From Acidobacteriota bacterium (GTDB taxonomy: Bacteria > Acidobacteriota > Terriglobia > Terriglobales > Acidobacteriaceae), in the NCBI GenBank assembly GCA_021792135.1, contig JAJYVF010000013.1, positions 1 to 64,000 of the forward strand: DNA of 64,000 nucleotides. The letters run 5' to 3'. A model generated the notes under the pieces. It did no database searches and was not told the origin of the DNA. It worked only from the letters and a program-made list of their open reading frames with translations. Positions 45,863 to 59,249 of this stretch are shown here, one piece after another. Position 1 is the first letter of the stretch, and each line of letters begins with the position of its first letter. The translations under genes were made by a program, and so were the position numbers.

Positions 45863-46655
45863 TCGCCGGCTGCTGGCCGTAGCTCTTTTGATTCTCTGCG
45901 GTTTCGCGCCGGGTTTTGCGCAGCAGGTGCGGCGGAATGACGAAACCCTGCGCATCGCTGCCGCCGCCGATCTCCAGCCACTGCTGCCGGCGGTGCTGAG
46001 CGCGTTTCAGCAGCAGACCGGCATCCGCACGGAGGCTTCGTATCAGTCCTCGGCCACCCTGGCCACGCAGATCATCAACGGCGCGCCGTTCGATCTGTTC
46101 CTGGCCGCCGATCTTGGATTTCCGCAGCGGGTGATCGACGCCGGACGCGCCGAGGAAGCGCGTCCGGTGCCGTACGCGCGCGGAACTCTGGTGCTGTGGA
46201 CGCGCAATGACTCGGGCGTCGCAACGTTGTCGCTTGAGGCTTTGCGCGGCTCGACGATCCGCTCCATTGCCGTGGCCAATGCGCAGCATGCGCCCTATGG
46301 CCGCGCCGCCCAGGCCGCGCTGGAACATGCCGCTCTGCTGGCGGTCGTTCGCTCGAAGCTGGTTGTCGCGGAGAACATCGCGCAGGCCGCGCAGTACGCC
46401 GACTCCGGCAACGCGCAGGTGGGGTTCATCTCGCTGACGTCGGCGCTGACGCCGCGGCTGAAGGCCGATGGCCACTTCATCCGTGTGGCCGCCGAGGATT
46501 ACCCGCCGCTGCTGCAGGGGGCGGTTGTCATTCGCAGGAGCGCAGGGGCCGACCTGGCCAGCCGCTTTCTTGCGTTCCTTAAAGGCCCTGAGGTGGCGAA
46601 GACCCTCGACGCCGAGGGGCTTGCGCCCGTCGACCAGGCTGCGTCCCGACCCTGA
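45855..46655 (+). CDS. modA: Molybdate-binding protein ModA
   Basis: A 266-residue periplasmic solute-binding protein. A signal peptide (LLAVALLILCGFAPGFAQ) is followed by the ModA core: LRIAAAADLQPLLPAVLSAF (near 35-54), SSATLATQIINGAPFDLFLAAD and YARGTLVLWTRND. Molybdate or tungstate is bound. The start is GTG at 45855, inside the regulator gene, and the stop overlaps modB by one base (TGATG). Confidence 0.88.
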   Translation: MCDRRLLAVALLILCGFAPGFAQQVRRNDETLRIAAAADLQPLLPAVLSAFQQQTGIRTEASYQSSATLATQIINGAPFDLFLAADLGFPQRVIDAGRAEEARPVPYARGTLVLWTRNDSGVATLSLEALRGSTIRSIAVANAQHAPYGRAAQAALEHAALLAVVRSKLVVAENIAQAAQYADSGNAQVGFISLTSALTPRLKADGHFIRVAAEDYPPLLQGAVVIRRSAGADLASRFLAFLKGPEVAKTLDAEGLAPVDQAASRP

Positions 46656-47323
46656 TGGATCTCCAGGCGCTGTGGCTCACAGTGCGTCTCGCCGCAGTCA
46701 CCACGCTGGTGCTGCTGGCCGTCGGGATTCCCCTCGCGTGGTGGATCGTCTCGACGCGCGCGCGGTGGCGGCCGCTGGTGGAATCCATCACGACGCTGCC
46801 GCTGCTGCTTCCGCCCACCGTGCTGGGCTTCTACCTGCTGGTGCTGCTGGGATCGCGCACCGCGTTCGGGCGAGCGGCGGCCCATCTGCTGGGACATCCG
46901 CTGGCATTCTCGTTTGCCGGGCTGGTGGTGGGGTCCGTGATTTACAGCCTGCCGTTCGCGGTGCAGCCGATGACGGCCGGTTTCCACGCCGTGGATCCGG
47001 CCATCGTCGATCAGGCACGATTGCTGGGGGCCGGGCGGCTGCGCATCCTGCGCGAGATTCTGCTGCCGCTCTCGGCGCGCTCGGTGCTGGCGGCGGCCAC
47101 GCTGTGTTTCACGCACACGGTCGGCGAGTTCGGTGTGGTGCTCATGATTGGCGGAGACATCCCGGGCGCCACGCGAACGCTCTCCATCGCGATCTACGAT
47201 CAGGTGCAGGATTTTTCCTACGCGCAGGCGAATCGGACTTCGCTTTTCCTGCTAAGCATCTCGCTGCTCGCGCTTCTGCTGCTGTACGGCCACCGCCGCA
47301 GCGAAGGGATCCCTCATGTCTGA
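46655..47323 (+). CDS. modB: Molybdate ABC transporter permease ModB
   Basis: A 222-residue integral membrane protein with five to six spans. The cytosolic EAA-type loop reads VDQARLLGAGRLRILREILLPL (near 121-142), where ModC docks. It forms the molybdate channel. ATG overlaps the modA stop, and the 3' end overlaps modC by 8 bases. Confidence 0.9.
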   Translation: MDLQALWLTVRLAAVTTLVLLAVGIPLAWWIVSTRARWRPLVESITTLPLLLPPTVLGFYLLVLLGSRTAFGRAAAHLLGHPLAFSFAGLVVGSVIYSLPFAVQPMTAGFHAVDPAIVDQARLLGAGRLRILREILLPLSARSVLAAATLCFTHTVGEFGVVLMIGGDIPGATRTLSIAIYDQVQDFSYAQANRTSLFLLSISLLALLLLYGHRRSEGIPHV

Positions 47324-48005
47324 GGTCCGCATTCGCCACCGGCAGGGCGGCTTTGTGCTCGATGCCGAGTTCTCGCTGGACGGTGCATGGACGGTGCTCT
47401 TTGGTCCTTCGGGCGCGGGAAAGAGCACGTTGCTGCGGATCCTGGCTGGACTGCTGGCGCCGCAGGAAGGCCGCATCACGATCGGCGGCCGCACGCTGCT
47501 GGATACCGCGCAGGGCATAGCTGTCCCGGCGGGGCGGCGATCAATCGGATTCGTCACCCAGCAGCCAGCCCTCTTTCCGCACCTGACGGTGCGCCAGAAT
47601 ATCGCTTTCGGCGTCCGCCATCTGAGCGCGCCTGCACGCGCCGGGCGTGTGCACGAGATGCTGCATCTTTTCGGAGCCGAGGCGCTTGCCGATCGCGGCG
47701 CAAAGAATCTTTCGGGAGGAGAAAGGCAGCGCGTTGCCCTGGCGCGCGCGCTGGCGCCCGCGCCGCAGCTGCTTCTGCTCGATGAGCCGCTCGCCGCGCT
47801 GGACGCCGCATCGGCCAAGGATATTCTGCGGCGTCTGCTGGATTTCGAGGTGCGCGTGCTCTACGTTTCGCACGATCTGGCGGAGATCTGGCGCATGCCC
47901 GCTGAGCTCGTGCTGCTCGACCGCGGGCGCGTTACGGCAACGGGCCCGCTGCGGCAGGTGCTGGCGGCCGACCGCGAGCGCCTGCTTGAACAGCTGGGCT
48001 CGTGA
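47316..48005 (+). CDS. modC: Molybdate transporter ATPase ModC, short form
   Basis: A 229-residue ABC ATPase: Walker A GPSGAGKSTLLRILAGLL, signature LSGGERQRVALARALA, Walker B LLLLDEPLAALD and the His switch LYVSHDLAEI. Classical ModC carries a C-terminal Mop/TOBE domain of about 120 residues; here the protein ends soon after the ATPase core. The Mop function sits in the upstream regulator. It ends directly against the convergent esterase gene. Confidence 0.88.
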   Translation: MSEVRIRHRQGGFVLDAEFSLDGAWTVLFGPSGAGKSTLLRILAGLLAPQEGRITIGGRTLLDTAQGIAVPAGRRSIGFVTQQPALFPHLTVRQNIAFGVRHLSAPARAGRVHEMLHLFGAEALADRGAKNLSGGERQRVALARALAPAPQLLLLDEPLAALDAASAKDILRRLLDFEVRVLYVSHDLAEIWRMPAELVLLDRGRVTATGPLRQVLAADRERLLEQLGS

Positions 48006-55105: not shown

Positions 55106-55490
55106 ACGGGGGTCTCCGAGCCGACCCACGCGCTTACAGAAGGGCTCTGACTGCCGGCCGGCGCCGAGCATGGCATCTTCAGCCGTGATACAGGACCGGA
55201 AACGGCAAAGCTCGCTGAGAACAGCGGGTATGTCCTTTGCCTTCGATCCCAGACCGGAATGTGTCAATGAGTCCAAATTGAGCAGCATAAGAGACCTAAA
55301 TCATTTCCTTCCCCTATGTTTCCGTCGAGCCAAGGTTTTTGTTGACCTGCAAGATGCCCGATGCTAGACTTCATTTCTCCCCTTGTATGAGGTTTCTGCT
55401 CGGCAGCATGACCGTTTCCCCCTGCTGACGGACTCATAAACAGCAGTAAGAACAACTTGGTAAGCTCTTTCGTCTGTCTGGGATCTTTCT
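55106..55490. other. 385-base intergenic region upstream of the PqqD operon
   Basis: The first 230 bases show nothing recognisable. A good sigma-70-type promoter is at 55342-55370. The transcript would have a leader of about 115 bases, with no clear riboswitch or hairpin. AT content is higher here than in the flanks. Confidence 0.5.
55342..55370 (+). promoter_or_regulatory. Sigma-70-type promoter of the kinase/PqqD operon
   Basis: TTGACC (55342-55347), 17 bases, TAGACT (55365-55370). Two mismatches from consensus overall, ideal spacing; start predicted near 55377. It is the best sigma-70-type promoter match I found in the window. Confidence 0.65.
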
Positions 55491-56390
55491 ATGACGGAAT
55501 CGATGGCCACGACCGCAGAGGACACCGTCCTCAGCCCTCCGGCTATTGCTGCTGGCACCTCGGTCGTGACGGCACGCTGCTCCGCCTATGGCATCGAGGT
55601 AGCAGTCGACACCAGCGATGACCTTTTCGGCTATCTGCCCTCCCCGCTGATTCCGCCTTCCACGATGCGTGAGTCGCGTACCCGGCAGCGCATCGGTTTC
55701 GCATTCACGCAGACCCGATGCGCGGATGGTCCGCCGCTCTTCACCGTAGCGGAAGAAGGAGTGCAGGTCTTGTCCTCTTCGGATGCGGAACTGGCTGCGC
55801 GCGTGCTCGAGTCGCAGATCCACCTCAAGGTGGCGGCGCTGACGGACCAGGCGGTCTTTGTGCATGCCGGGGTGGTGGGACTGGACGGCAGGGCCCTGGT
55901 GATCCCGGGACCCTCCCGCAGTGGAAAGAGCACGCTGGTCGATGCTCTGGTGTCGGCGGGCGCAACCTACTACTCAGACGAATACGCGGTCATCGATGTC
56001 GACGGCCGCATTCATGCTTTTCCGCGGGAATTGCGGCTGCGCGACGGCTTGGCGCGAGATCGGCGCGTGAGCCTGGGCGGCGAACCGACCGAGCCACTTG
56101 AGGCCGCGTGGGTATTCAATCTTCGTTATCAGGCGGGGGCTGTCTGGGAGCCGAAGGAGCTGACTCCAGGGCAGACGCTGCTCACCTTGCTGGCCAACTC
56201 GGTAGCCGTCAGAAGGCGGTCTGAGGTCACCGTGAGGACCCTCAGGCTGGCGACCGCACCTGCACAGGGTTGGTATTCCCTGCGCGCTGATGCCGCCGAG
56301 ACAGCGAAGCAAATCCTTCAACTCATCAACCGAACCCCGGGGGCGACGCAGGCTCGCAGCCAGGGCCACGCAGGAGAGGACCGTCCATGA
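55491..56390 (+). CDS. HPr-kinase-like protein
   Basis: A 299-residue protein of the HprK-related type. Walker A is GPSRSGKSTLVDALVSAG at about 141-158, preceded by AVFVHAGVVGLDGRALVIPG, and followed by YYSDEYAVID, the metal-binding acidic motif of this family. The N-terminal third is poorly conserved. Relatives modify carrier or precursor peptides (for example phosphorylating lasso peptides) in clusters with PqqD-like and nucleotidyltransferase genes. Promoter upstream; the end overlaps the next gene by 4 bases. It is not the phosphotransferase-system HPr kinase: no HPr gene is near. An ATG at 55503 is an alternative start. Confidence 0.75.
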   Translation: MTESMATTAEDTVLSPPAIAAGTSVVTARCSAYGIEVAVDTSDDLFGYLPSPLIPPSTMRESRTRQRIGFAFTQTRCADGPPLFTVAEEGVQVLSSSDAELAARVLESQIHLKVAALTDQAVFVHAGVVGLDGRALVIPGPSRSGKSTLVDALVSAGATYYSDEYAVIDVDGRIHAFPRELRLRDGLARDRRVSLGGEPTEPLEAAWVFNLRYQAGAVWEPKELTPGQTLLTLLANSVAVRRRSEVTVRTLRLATAPAQGWYSLRADAAETAKQILQLINRTPGATQARSQGHAGEDRP

Positions 56391-56977
56391 AGAATCCACG
56401 TGCACGGAGAAACAACGTAGTGTGTGAGGATCTGGCTGCGGAAACCGTTCTATATGACCGAGCAAACAACCGCGCTCACAGCCTGAACCGGACCGTTGGG
56501 CTGGTGTGGCAGGCGGCGGATGGCCAACGGTCCGTCGAGGAGATTGCCGTCATCCTGCATCGCGAGCTGGGGATTCCCGCTGATCCCGGCGTGGTGCTGC
56601 TCGCGCTCCAGGATCTCGAAGGAGCCGGGCTGATCGAGGAGCCTCTGCCGGTCGAAGCCAGGCCGGAACTGCTTTCTCGCCGCGAGGTCGCGCGGAAGCT
56701 GGCGCTGGCCGGGTTTTCGATGGCCATGCTGCCAGCGGTTGCTTCCATTGTCGCTCCTACGCCGGCGATGGCGGCTTCCATGATTACAGCGCAACAGGCG
56801 GGGCAGGATCTGGGCACAGTGGGAACGGAGGCTTATAACAACCCGAATTTTCTGACCGACCCGAATGCCATCACGGGTCTTTCCAACGCACAGAACGCCT
56901 ATGTCTCCGGCAATTACAATACCGAGATCCAGGATCTGGACGGGGTCATCAATGCTTTGGGCCTGCCACCGCTGTAA
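56387..56977 (+). CDS. PqqD-like domain fused to a twin-arginine-like exported tail, paralogue A
   Basis: A 196-residue protein in three parts. Residues about 10-90 are PqqD-like (VLYDRANNRAHSLNRTVGLVW, DGQRSVEEIA, VVLLALQDL), the peptide-recognition fold. Residues 97-130 are a twin-arginine-like signal (SRREVARK, a hydrophobic stretch, then AMA|S). The 131-196 tail is rich in Asn, Gln, Thr and Gly and ends LGLPPL. An internal signal is unusual. The PqqD part could recruit the kinase and the tail be the product, but no function is established. Confidence 0.7.
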   Translation: MKNPRARRNNVVCEDLAAETVLYDRANNRAHSLNRTVGLVWQAADGQRSVEEIAVILHRELGIPADPGVVLLALQDLEGAGLIEEPLPVEARPELLSRREVARKLALAGFSMAMLPAVASIVAPTPAMAASMITAQQAGQDLGTVGTEAYNNPNFLTDPNAITGLSNAQNAYVSGNYNTEIQDLDGVINALGLPPL

Positions 56978-56995
56978 AAAAGGGAGGAAGCTGAA

Positions 56996-57595
56996 ATGAC
57001 GAACCCCTGCGCACGGCGCAACGACATCTTTTGCGAGAATCTGGACGCGGAAACCATCGTTTACGACAAGGCAAAGGATCGTGCTCACAGTCTGAACCGC
57101 ACGGTCATGCTGGTGTGGGAGTCCGCGGACGGACAGAGGACGGTGGAGGACATCGCCGCCATTCTGCATCGCGAGCTGGGGATTCCCGCCGACCGCCACG
57201 TGGTGCTGCTCGCTCTCCAGGAACTGGAGAAGGCGAGCCTGCTCCAGGAGCCGGTGCCGGTGGAAGCCGGGCCTGAGCTGCTTTCGCGGCGCCAGGTCGC
57301 GAGGAAGCTTGCGCTGGCAGGCGCGAGTGTGGCCATGCTGCCGGTCATTGCCACGGTGCTGGCGCCAACACCGGCGATGGCCGCCTCGATGATCACACAG
57401 CAACAGGCGGGGCAGGATCTGACGACGGTGACTGGGCAGGCGATCGCGAATCCGAATTTTCTTGTTGGCCCTGAGGCGCAGACCGCGCAGGCGGACCTGG
57501 GCAATGCAATGCTGGACTTCTCCACTGGCAACTACAACGCTGAGATCCAACAACTGGACGGGGTAATTCAGGCACTGGGCCTGCCGCCGCTGTAA
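56996..57595 (+). CDS. PqqD-like domain fused to a twin-arginine-like exported tail, paralogue B
   Basis: 199 residues, a tandem copy of the previous gene. Up to residue 140 it aligns without a gap: HSLNRTV, DGQRTVEDIA, HRELGIPAD, LLSRRQVARKLALAG, APTPAMAASMIT and QQAGQDL are shared. The tail (141-199) differs in length and sequence but keeps NPNFL, GNYN, LDGVI and the end LGLPPL. It starts 18 bases after the first copy behind a GGAGGAA site. The duplication looks fairly old but constrained. Same uncertainty as for the first copy. Confidence 0.7.
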   Translation: MTNPCARRNDIFCENLDAETIVYDKAKDRAHSLNRTVMLVWESADGQRTVEDIAAILHRELGIPADRHVVLLALQELEKASLLQEPVPVEAGPELLSRRQVARKLALAGASVAMLPVIATVLAPTPAMAASMITQQQAGQDLTTVTGQAIANPNFLVGPEAQTAQADLGNAMLDFSTGNYNAEIQQLDGVIQALGLPPL

Positions 57596-58006
57596 ATGGC
57601 CATGCGAAGACGAACGCGCAGGAAGCTGCTTCTTCGGGCGGCGATCGTGGCCCTGGCGTTCGCAGGCGGAGGGTCTTTGCTGCTCCTGCGGCTGCATCGG
57701 CAGCGCGCCGAGCCTCAGATCGTTGCAAGCCAACCGCCGATGCGATTGCCCTTCGCGCTGCCCTGCTCGACCAGTTCCGGCAACGCAGGCCTCTTTTACG
57801 CGGCCCTGCGCCGCAGCGACCGGACCACGGTAACGGCGATGCTTGCGGCGAACGAAATAACCATGATCCGGAAAGGAACGGCTCTTTCCATCGTGCCGGG
57901 ACATCCGATGGCGATCGTCACCACCCAGGGGGCTCCGCAGCGAACGGTCAGCTGCTTCATCCCGGCGGATGTGGTGCCGGCGATTGAACGCAAGGCTTAC
58001 CGGTGA
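57596..58006 (+). CDS. Small membrane-anchored protein of unknown function
   Basis: A 136-residue protein. An Arg-rich start (MRRRTRRK) precedes one transmembrane segment at about 12-32 (LLLRAAIVALAFAGGGSLLLL). About 100 outside residues contain two Cys (LPCSTSSG and VSCFIP) that could form a disulfide. It directly follows the second PqqD gene, with no bases between stop and start, and precedes the nucleotidyltransferase. No family is recognised; context places it in the same system. Confidence 0.65.
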   Translation: MAMRRRTRRKLLLRAAIVALAFAGGGSLLLLRLHRQRAEPQIVASQPPMRLPFALPCSTSSGNAGLFYAALRRSDRTTVTAMLAANEITMIRKGTALSIVPGHPMAIVTTQGAPQRTVSCFIPADVVPAIERKAYR

Positions 58007-58022
58007 TCGGAGACGTGGGCCC

Positions 58023-59249
58023 ATGACAGCCGCTGCCGCGGTTCTCGAACAAGCTCACGGCGTAGCCGTCGACCAGCGGCGGCTGCTTCTGGCTTGTGTG
58101 CGGCAGGCCCTCGGAACCGGCAAGGGTCCGCTGCCTGCGCTGCGAAGCTCGGCGAACTGGCCACGGCTGCTGGAGCTGGCAAAGCAGCATCGAGTTGTGC
58201 CCCTGCTGCGTAAGGTGCTGTGCGGCGCGGAATGGGTTCCAACAGCGGTGCAGGTGTGGATGGAGGAGTATTGCCGGACCATTGTCTCCCACAACCTCTC
58301 GCTGGCTTCTGAACTTACCGGTGTTCTGGATGCGCTCCAACAGGCCGGTGTCGCAGCCGTTCCCTACAAAGGTCCAGCCTGGACGAAAGCCCTGTATGGC
58401 AACCTGGCCGATCGGCAGATCGGCGATCTGGACCTGTTTGTTGAGGTTTCCGAGATCCCGCGGGCCTGCACCGTGCTGGAGGGATGCGGCTACACGCGAG
58501 GGTACTTCCCCGGAGAAGACATCAACCGCAAGGACGTTGGTTTTGTGCATACCGCGACGGGGCTTCACCTGGAGTTGCACTGGTCGCCCTGCGAACCCTG
58601 GCGGGACAGGAGGCTGGCTCGTCTTCATCTCTGGACGCCGCAGTCGACGACAGTCCTGCTGGGCCGGGAGGTGGCGCTGCCCTCGGCCGAAAATATGCTG
58701 CTTCTGCTGGCCATTCACGGTTTCCGCGATGGCTGGAATTCGCTGAAGCTGGTGTGCGATATTGCGGCCCTGCTCAGGGCGTATCCGGATCTGGATTTCA
58801 AAGGGGCGCTGCGGCGGGCTGCGGAGGTTTCGCGGACGAGGCTGATCCTCGTTCCACTGGCGCTGGCCGAGCAGCTGCTCCATGTGAAACTCCCGGCGGC
58901 TGCGATAGCACGCGATCCCCTGGTGGCCGAAATCGCCGGACAAATCGAGCGCCACCACTACACTCCGGAAGCCGATCGACTGGAGGCGGAGGGGCGAGTG
59001 GTTTCGGGGCGGATCTATCTCGAATGGGTGCGCCTGCAGATCGTTGACAACGTATGGGAACGGCTGGCGTGGCACACCAGGTATCTCTTCAGCCTGCTGG
59101 CGCCCAATGCGAACGACCGAAGCTGGTTCAGCCGAAAGTTGCCGGAGCCGGTTTACTGGGTTCTGAAACCCTGGCGTTTGCTCAGGAGTTATGGCCCGGC
59201 GCGGCTTCTCCGGCTGGGTCGCCAGTTTGTGGCGCGGTCCGCGCCCTGA
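58023..59249 (+). CDS. NTP_transf_5-family nucleotidyltransferase
   Basis: A 408-residue protein of the NTP_transf_5 (PF14907-type) family. The Pol-beta-like catalytic region is VPYKGPAWTKALYGNLADRQIGDLDLFVE, with the GD-x-D metal motif at about 138-143, and LHLELHWSPCEPW follows. The ATG at 58023 lies 16 bases after the previous gene; a longer open frame is ignored. Members accompany PqqD and HPr-kinase-like genes and are thought to nucleotidylate peptides or small molecules. It is the last gene of the operon and converges on the FecR-type gene. Confidence 0.75.
   Translation: MTAAAAVLEQAHGVAVDQRRLLLACVRQALGTGKGPLPALRSSANWPRLLELAKQHRVVPLLRKVLCGAEWVPTAVQVWMEEYCRTIVSHNLSLASELTGVLDALQQAGVAAVPYKGPAWTKALYGNLADRQIGDLDLFVEVSEIPRACTVLEGCGYTRGYFPGEDINRKDVGFVHTATGLHLELHWSPCEPWRDRRLARLHLWTPQSTTVLLGREVALPSAENMLLLLAIHGFRDGWNSLKLVCDIAALLRAYPDLDFKGALRRAAEVSRTRLILVPLALAEQLLHVKLPAAAIARDPLVAEIAGQIERHHYTPEADRLEAEGRVVSGRIYLEWVRLQIVDNVWERLAWHTRYLFSLLAPNANDRSWFSRKLPEPVYWVLKPWRLLRSYGPARLLRLGRQFVARSAP

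Follow-up and report, generated by a model that had tools for sequence, protein, structure and literature searches.

A conserved acidobacterial gene set with PqqD-type domains fused to variable tails behind an internal twin-arginine-like signal: a candidate RiPP-like pathway

The closest described counterpart of the system reported here is the LPP pathway of Bacillota (lpp clusters), a set consisting of a RiPP recognition element (RRE; RiPP, ribosomally synthesized and post-translationally modified peptide), an HprK-like kinase and a nucleoside triphosphate (NTP) transferase, with no macrolactam cyclase; its kinase LppK phosphorylates Ser3 of the LppA core (PMC13381572). Reviews of the lasso peptides paeninodin (PadeK) and pseudomycoidin (PsmK-PsmN) likewise describe an HprK-like kinase, an annotated nucleotidyltransferase and a PqqD-type RRE (B1); in pseudomycoidin, PsmK phosphorylates a serine and PsmN is needed for the addition of one or two hexoses to the phosphate (PMC9266682, PMC8498205). 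We found the same types of enzymes in an operon of an Acidobacteriota bacterium (GenBank assembly GCA_021792135.1, contig JAJYVF010000013.1, positions 1 to 64,000; this entire 64,000-nucleotide stretch is called the window), where an HprK-related kinase and an NTP_transf_5 protein (PF14907) flank two PqqD-domain proteins, P1 and P2, each with an internal twin-arginine-like signal and a variable tail. PsmN is presumably a PF14907 member as well. On balance, we lean towards reading this operon as a RiPP-like pathway in which substrate and recognition element form one fused protein, the two enzymes modify the tail, and the twin-arginine translocation (Tat) system exports it.

The candidate substrate is built differently from that of LPP. 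LPP clusters encode RRE and precursor as two proteins, the RRE discrete and the precursor short, with the motif YxxPxVLxHQxIxFETxxS, whereas RRE and tail share one chain in 128 proteins of the module; LPP relies on a leader peptidase of the SipW-like (SpI) kind and on an MsbA-like exporter, in whose place the module has a Tat-like signal (PMC13381572). Neither a SipW-like peptidase nor an MsbA-like transporter was found in the operon or the scanned window neighbours, a search that was not genome-wide; the only ABC pair near the operon (46655-48005, 7.5 kb away) is of the binding-protein-dependent type. ABC and peptidase families are likewise missing from the 25 most frequent of the 142 families detected in the 141 flanking proteins scanned at related loci (out of 206 eligible, late-listed loci being omitted and no control set used). 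The enzymes of the module are the LPP set minus the LPP peptidase and exporter. Both systems are patchily distributed and often lie in polysaccharide loci, but LPP is restricted to Bacillota according to its authors (PMC13381572), whereas the module occurs in Acidobacteriota, Gemmatimonadetes and a few others, and its tails, unlike LPP, are mostly Cys-rich.

Two assignments to other known systems were rejected. In the phosphorylated lasso peptides, the modified residue is a C-terminal Ser, whereas only 4 of the 128 proteins end in Ser, and neither a B2 peptidase nor a macrolactam cyclase is encoded by the operon or turns up in the 25 most frequent neighbour families; the operon is thus not a lasso-peptide cluster. 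The NCBIfam HPr-rel-A system (TIGR04352/TIGR04353) also combines an HprK-related kinase with a PqqD family protein, but the window proteins fall under both model cut-offs: the kinase scores 59.1 bits (E 3.6e-16), far below the required 200, and P1 and P2 reach 19.7 and 15.2 bits against 35 for the PqqD model, which spans 74 residues and is tail-less. A further comparison concerns the DUF2282 precursors, to which the name bufferins is linked. These resemble the module in being RRE-associated and carrying an export signal, but their signal is of the Sec type and the RRE belongs to another, DUF2063-associated protein (PMC12710340).

The PqqD domain that the preliminary description had claimed for both window proteins was confirmed by profile search: PF05402 matches P1 with 27.9 and P2 with 27.0 bits, above the Pfam cut-off of 23.4, and all 47 family members scanned also match (E up to 0.01). 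AlphaFold2 predicts three strands and three helices for P2 residues 1-80, with block means of the predicted local distance difference test (pLDDT) of 90-96, while the tail is poorly predicted (53-66 from residue 131). Foldseek ranks TbiB1, a lasso-peptide RRE whose solved structure includes the leader, first for this predicted RRE fold (probability 1.00, E 3e-3); all matches had E values above 0.001, and PqqD ranked seventh. P1 and P2 are 71% identical (leader 74%, signal 73%, tail 68%) and share the internal signal SRRxxxRKLALAG...APTPAMA. Their dN/dS ratios are 0.19 for the PqqD part, 0.19 for the signal and 0.31 for the tail (Nei-Gojobori, own script); judged from the latter value, the window tails are constrained protein under purifying selection.

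The fusion extends well beyond the window. In the fetched loci, 166 PqqD hits included 154 with a signal-like stretch, which yielded 128 distinct proteins (last 70 residues not identical) at 112 loci; loci and genomes are related, and these counts are therefore not independent events. The tails are hypervariable, with a mean pairwise identity of 18% outside Cys as compared to 41% in the leader and 49% in the signal (up to 3,000 sampled pairs). The 22 within-locus pairs of multi-precursor loci averaged 53% in the leader, 60% in the signal and 45% in the tail including Cys. At the signal columns, the twin arginine is present in 128 of 128 proteins, which had been filtered for a signal and collected with profiles that included these columns; a Ser/Thr precedes it in 110 and Lys/Arg stands at +5 in 111, and the strict pattern [ST]RRx-phi-phi-[KR] fits 92. 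The claims of the preliminary description that PqqD is fused to a tail and that a twin-arginine-like signal lies inside the protein thus both hold in relatives.

By our own pattern rules, which were used without a trained signal predictor, the proteins possess the twin arginine, hydrophobic stretch and AxA-type site of a Tat substrate, and the internal signal looks Tat-type. The simple rule for the AxA site errs in some rows, and counts were therefore based on the twin-arginine column and the Cys positions. The genome of the window encodes TatC. Tat library models match few members (Pfam TAT_signal 1/47, E up to 0.01; NCBIfam TAT_signal_seq 1/47), which may be expected because they were built for N-terminal signals. 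The segment is also hydrophobic enough for Sec (Kyte-Doolittle 15-residue means 1.4 to 2.7), and P1, P2 and their relatives could be Sec-inserted membrane proteins, with this stretch serving simply as a signal anchor and an incidental twin arginine. We regard this as improbable, since a Sec signal would need neither the invariant arginine pair nor the Ser/Thr and Lys/Arg around it, and the first Cys lies at a nearly fixed distance from the pair (median 33, 5th-95th percentile 31-37).

Most tails contain Cys: 118 of the 128 have two or more and 10 have none. Even numbers prevail (116 of the 118), most often six (72 tails) or eight (31). The C-C-CC-C-C spacing of cystine knots occurs in 41 of the 128. 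Directly before the first Cys stands a Ser/Thr in 92 of 118 tails, as compared to 121 of 688 positions before later Cys. The loci of a named-genome scan had been found with HCLN-containing patterns, so proteins not found that way were counted separately; in these 64 proteins, Cys parity is even in 53 of 54, and Ser/Thr precedes the first Cys in 37 of 54 versus 61 of 327 later ones. The Ser modified in LPP also lies near the core start (S3; PMC13381572), and the module is only consistent with this, by the Ser/Thr before the first Cys and by S131, which is found in both window proteins 1-3 residues past the AxA site. Cys-free tails occur, besides P1 and P2, in the window relatives L023 and L024, in a second locus of the same genome and in two tandem proteins of the Gemmatimonadetes phylum. 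Two precursor-like proteins have low-complexity tails (L065:5639-6304 and L070:5392-5967; TTxDPG or GGGDT repeats, poly-Thr). At one locus (L027:6237-6742), the PqqD gene stops and a Tat-type signal with a Cys-rich tail follows directly in another frame, a frameshift or assembly error; at another (L028:1362-2270), a short PqqD gene precedes a second, distinct gene that encodes a Tat-type signal close to its beginning, like a split fusion.

A Cys of the RRE (HCLN motif, window position 32) tracks the tail, being present in 110 of 118 proteins with tail Cys and in 3 of 10 Cys-free ones (50/54 versus 3/10 in the HCLN-independent subset; kinship uncorrected). Tat usually exports folded proteins. 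This co-variation, the Cys-rich tails, the preference of Tat for folded cargo and the occurrence of MauE and AhpC-TSA in two flanking proteins each would suit redox- or metal-active mini-proteins, whose RRE would serve cofactor or disulfide loading and whose phosphorylation would be regulatory. Such a role seems rather improbable to us, as Cys-free tails, including those of the window, keep the enzymes, and the even Cys parity fits disulfides. A separate observation is a 516-residue protein encoded between NTP_transf_5 and precursor genes (L089:4261-5811), whose start reads like MauE; disulfide machinery is possible there.

The products might instead be secreted antagonistic mini-proteins, such as knottin-like bacteriocins; their modification would then protect the producer or confer activity. 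This proposal concerns the role of the product and is compatible with the fused-substrate pathway. Hypervariable tails on a Cys framework, two to four precursors per locus in 11 of the 112 loci and the patchy distribution speak for it, as does a UPF0506 match in 3 of 47 members; weak matches to cystine-knot toxin families were also seen in single members. These Pfam toxin-type matches are marginal, however (best E 0.0001 to 0.01), and no conserved-immunity-like gene was noticed, although no search aimed at one was made, so that we consider an antagonistic role possible but doubtful.

The gene set is conserved, an outcome opposite to the one that the preliminary description had named as refuting, its absence from relatives. 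With kinase and NTP_transf_5 profiles seeded from the neighbours of the first few hits, both enzymes were found within 3.5 kb of the precursor in 68 of the 112 loci, the kinase only in 13 and NTP_transf_5 only in 14; at least one enzyme is thus present in 95, the kinase in 81 and NTP_transf_5 in 82. The proposed search for the same gene order across genomes recovered kinase, precursor and NTP_transf_5 in this order on one strand in 58 of the 68 loci with both enzymes. When the loci found with the HCLN pattern are set aside, 58 remain, 34 with both enzymes and 8 with neither. Searches with P2 at E 0.001 matched 11 of 100 genomes, its own included, some of these being discrete PqqD proteins or weak matches. 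Within the genus, at least 2 of 12 genomes match, again including its own, a lower bound because the single-sequence search missed a diverged third copy in the own genome. Profile A1, built from seven proteins, matched 83 of 396 genomes of the phylum at E 1e-5, with weaker matches spanning the PqqD part only; from its matches 55 loci were fetched, strongest first and with some left aside, and 14 more loci were added.

The named-genome scan yielded 78 loci, 71 of them titled Acidobacteria, Pyrinomonadaceae, Blastocatellia or Chloracidobacterium. The remainder comprise four Gemmatimonadetes, one Chloroflexi, one other bacterium and one isolate, Mesorhizobium ciceri WSM4083; apart from this isolate, all are metagenome-assembled genomes (MAGs) or assemblies so titled. 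In the phylum of one of the Gemmatimonadetes MAGs, 15 of 298 genomes match at E 1e-20 (the centre genome included), and in the order of Mesorhizobium 4 of 249 at 1e-10, where the full architecture is confined to the Mesorhizobium genome, all six further matches being to discrete PqqD proteins. In genome G978 of the former phylum, two tandem precursors lie beside a kinase (L181), and their Cys-free tails begin with AS after AMA, as in the window.

Precursors outnumber kinases in five of seven genomes: G290, G171, G107, G351 and G297 have one kinase each and 5, 3, 3, 3 and 2 precursors, respectively, while G335 has three kinases. In G351, the kinase gene lies on a contig without precursor. Judged from these numbers and this location, a kinase probably serves several precursors in trans. 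The two hits on contig 25 of G290 belong to a single gene, which carries a long repetitive insertion inside the PqqD domain of the precursor (L067:5256-6119).

The catalytic residues of both enzymes are conserved. Of 81 kinases, 80 retain the His upstream of the P-loop, and all retain the Gly and Lys of the P-loop and the Asp after it, which is followed by Glu/Asp in 79. The fourth residue is mostly Glu, whereas the catalytic set given for lasso kinases is His-Lys-Asp-Asp, with Asp at this place (PMC9266682). All 32 kinases scanned hit TIGR04352 with E values under or close to 0.01, the best being 9.5e-20, and a profile search of solved structures gave two marginal matches, HprK/P 1ko7 (E 0.11) and the P-loop protein 6c2u (E 0.85). 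The NTP_transf_5 protein of the window exceeds its family cut-off by far (169.4 versus 31.2 bits), and both Asp of the DxD motif are retained in 82 of 82 proteins. Its AlphaFold2 model, reliable for residues 81-160 (block means 87-97) and poor in the C-terminal quarter, has a predicted nucleotidyltransferase-type fold, with a nucleotidyltransferase-like protein, ANT(2'')-Ia and LnuA as best matches and FKRP at rank 5; the solved-structure profile search with the NTP_transf_5 alignment found no match at E up to 1. The preliminary description had proposed that the two enzymes modify peptides with phosphate or nucleotidyl groups. They are indeed known together as peptide-modifying enzymes; precedent favours a Ser phosphate followed by hexose, not nucleotidylation.

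In the fused-substrate pathway that we favour, each precursor would unite three parts in a single chain: the RRE at roughly residues 1-85, the twin-arginine signal at 97-129 and the tail as core. The RRE would dock kinase and NTP_transf_5 protein in the cytoplasm; as it is part of the same chain as the tail, no separate leader motif would be needed. The kinase may then phosphorylate a Ser/Thr of the tail, most likely 1-3 residues past AxA (S131 in the window proteins, and in relatives mostly the Ser/Thr before the first Cys), and the NTP_transf_5 protein would add a group to this phosphate, by precedent a hexose; by analogy, the tail would probably be glycosylated as well as phosphorylated. 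Tat would insert the internal signal with the RRE remaining inside, and signal peptidase would cut after AxA and release the tail, which in most relatives may fold with three or four disulfides. Since the signal lies between RRE and tail, Tat export and AxA cleavage would part the tail from its docking domain, and would replace the LPP exporter and a special peptidase.

Several points weigh against this pathway. Neither enzyme is encoded nearby in 17 of the 112 loci, and no kinase match at E 1e-8 was found in G475, one of the seven genomes. The P1 and P2 tails lack Cys, and a Ser/Thr before the first Cys is absent in 26 of the 118 Cys tails; where present, it could reflect a preference of signal peptidase. 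The invariance of the twin arginine was counted after selection for a signal, which excluded 12 of the 166 PqqD hits. Five of these rows (L027, L069, L101 twice, L167) represent broken or truncated fragments, another six (L028, L029, L030, L033, L066, L068) are PqqD proteins of the discrete type, and the last (L147) is a short frame. The same cell has another peptide substrate, a lasso-like set on contig 55. The neighbours of the window operon include no recognised glycan gene, so that the window itself lacks two conspicuous traits of the wider family, tail Cys and adjoining glycan genes. In LPP, deletion of lppN caused no detectable change in the heterologous host (PMC13381572).

The enzymes might also serve exopolysaccharide assembly, with the precursor-like proteins as exported glycan-binding or glycan-bearing anchors and the phosphosugar as the site where the polymer is attached. 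Translations at many Pyrinomonadaceae and Blastocatellia loci read as a WecA-type transferase and glycosyltransferases ahead of the module and TsaB/RimI-type genes behind it, and the flanking proteins include Glycos_transf_4 (20/141), Glycos_transf_2 (5), Glycos_transf_1 (3) and Poly_export (2). Capsule loci also often host LPP and paeninodin clusters (PMC13381572), a parallel that is not proved but worth testing. Yet the 20 Glycos_transf_4 neighbours look like the synteny of one lineage, with TsaD-type genes (19/141) at the same spot, so the glycan link may be positional; and beside the second locus in the window's genome, on contig 48, CcmE and an ABC gene follow and no glycan gene was recognised, as at the window operon. 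An exopolysaccharide function is therefore unlikely in our view.

Should the fused-substrate pathway be correct, it would add a third design to those in RRE surveys, where an RRE is either a protein in its own right or a portion of a larger biosynthetic protein (including PMC12710340). Among PF05402 matches, 21% are too long for a discrete RRE and lack other annotation (PMC12710340); fused precursors could account for part of these. The HprK-related kinase/NTP_transf_5 pair would gain, beyond lasso and LPP clusters, a substrate to which it is genetically linked, and Tat would become an export route for variable disulfide-rich mini-proteins in little-studied bacteria. A PqqD domain fused to a Tat-exported tail was not found described in the open-licence literature searched. 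We tentatively propose, at somewhat less than even confidence, a RiPP class in which a covalently fused RRE takes the place of the leader, so that each precursor brings its own docking domain; in which phosphoglycosylated, hypervariable and mostly disulfide-rich mini-proteins leave via Tat; and in which one kinase serves a genome-wide precursor set, widespread in Acidobacteriota and present in Gemmatimonadetes. There is a real chance that the module could prove a class of its own by its chemistry.

The five genes of the window operon are as tightly packed as first described (Table 1): kinase and P1 genes overlap by 4 nt, and the subsequent gaps measure 18, 0 and 16 nt. The gene caller favours 58023 over 57969 as NTP_transf_5 start and a later start, 57677, for the small protein. 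Two elements of the preliminary description did not stand. Its single promoter was rejected, as the consensus match is no better than chance (1 found versus 0.6 expected in shuffles of the region). The small membrane protein was dropped from the conserved set because it was found in only 1 of 61 genomes searched, its own; no family scored over cut-off in Pfam or NCBIfam scans.

Table 1. Features of the window operon (positions in the window).
Feature	Position	Strand	Details
Weak sigma-70-like promoter match	55342-55370	+	consensus match
HprK-related kinase	55491-56390	+	299 aa; H125, P-loop G145-K146, D163-E164
PqqD/RRE-signal-tail protein 1 (P1)	56387-56977	+	196 aa
P1 internal twin-arginine-like signal (predicted)	56675-56773	+	S97-RR to A129; RR column, AxA site
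P1 Cys-free tail	56774-56974	+	residues 130-196
PqqD/RRE-signal-tail protein 2 (P2)	56996-57595	+	199 aa
P2 internal twin-arginine-like signal (predicted)	57284-57382	+	S97-RR to A129; RR column, AxA site
P2 Cys-free tail	57383-57592	+	residues 130-199
Small protein, hydrophobic segment at N-terminus	57596-58006	+	orphan, probably outside the module
NTP_transf_5 protein	58023-59249	+	408 aa; K116-G117, D135-x-D137

The operon is flanked by a pyridine-nucleotide oxidoreductase gene (Pyr_redox_2) and a DUF6600 gene; further neighbours scanned in the window are the ABC pair, an esterase, a decarboxylase, a TIG-domain protein, RuvC and ThiG. The second locus of the same genome (L020, contig 48, 13,026-14,439) consists of a PqqD-signal-tail gene, whose Cys-free tail contains abundant D, R, H and P, followed by a kinase gene and then the CcmE and ABC genes; NTP_transf_5 was not found in the 12 kb read there. 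The lasso-like set (L185, end of contig 55, 715-3,236) comprises a Transglut_core3 gene over cut-off, which is the only B2-type match of the genome, an adjacent asparagine-synthase-like gene (648 residues) and a 47-residue frame whose C-terminus is not Ser, and neither a kinase nor an NTP_transf_5 gene was recognised in the 8 kb read. Further NTP_transf_5 genes lie on contigs 9 and 74. The one on contig 9 (L021, 84,886-91,111) is located near genes that read, from their translations, as asparagine-synthase-like, carrier-protein-like and ligase-like.

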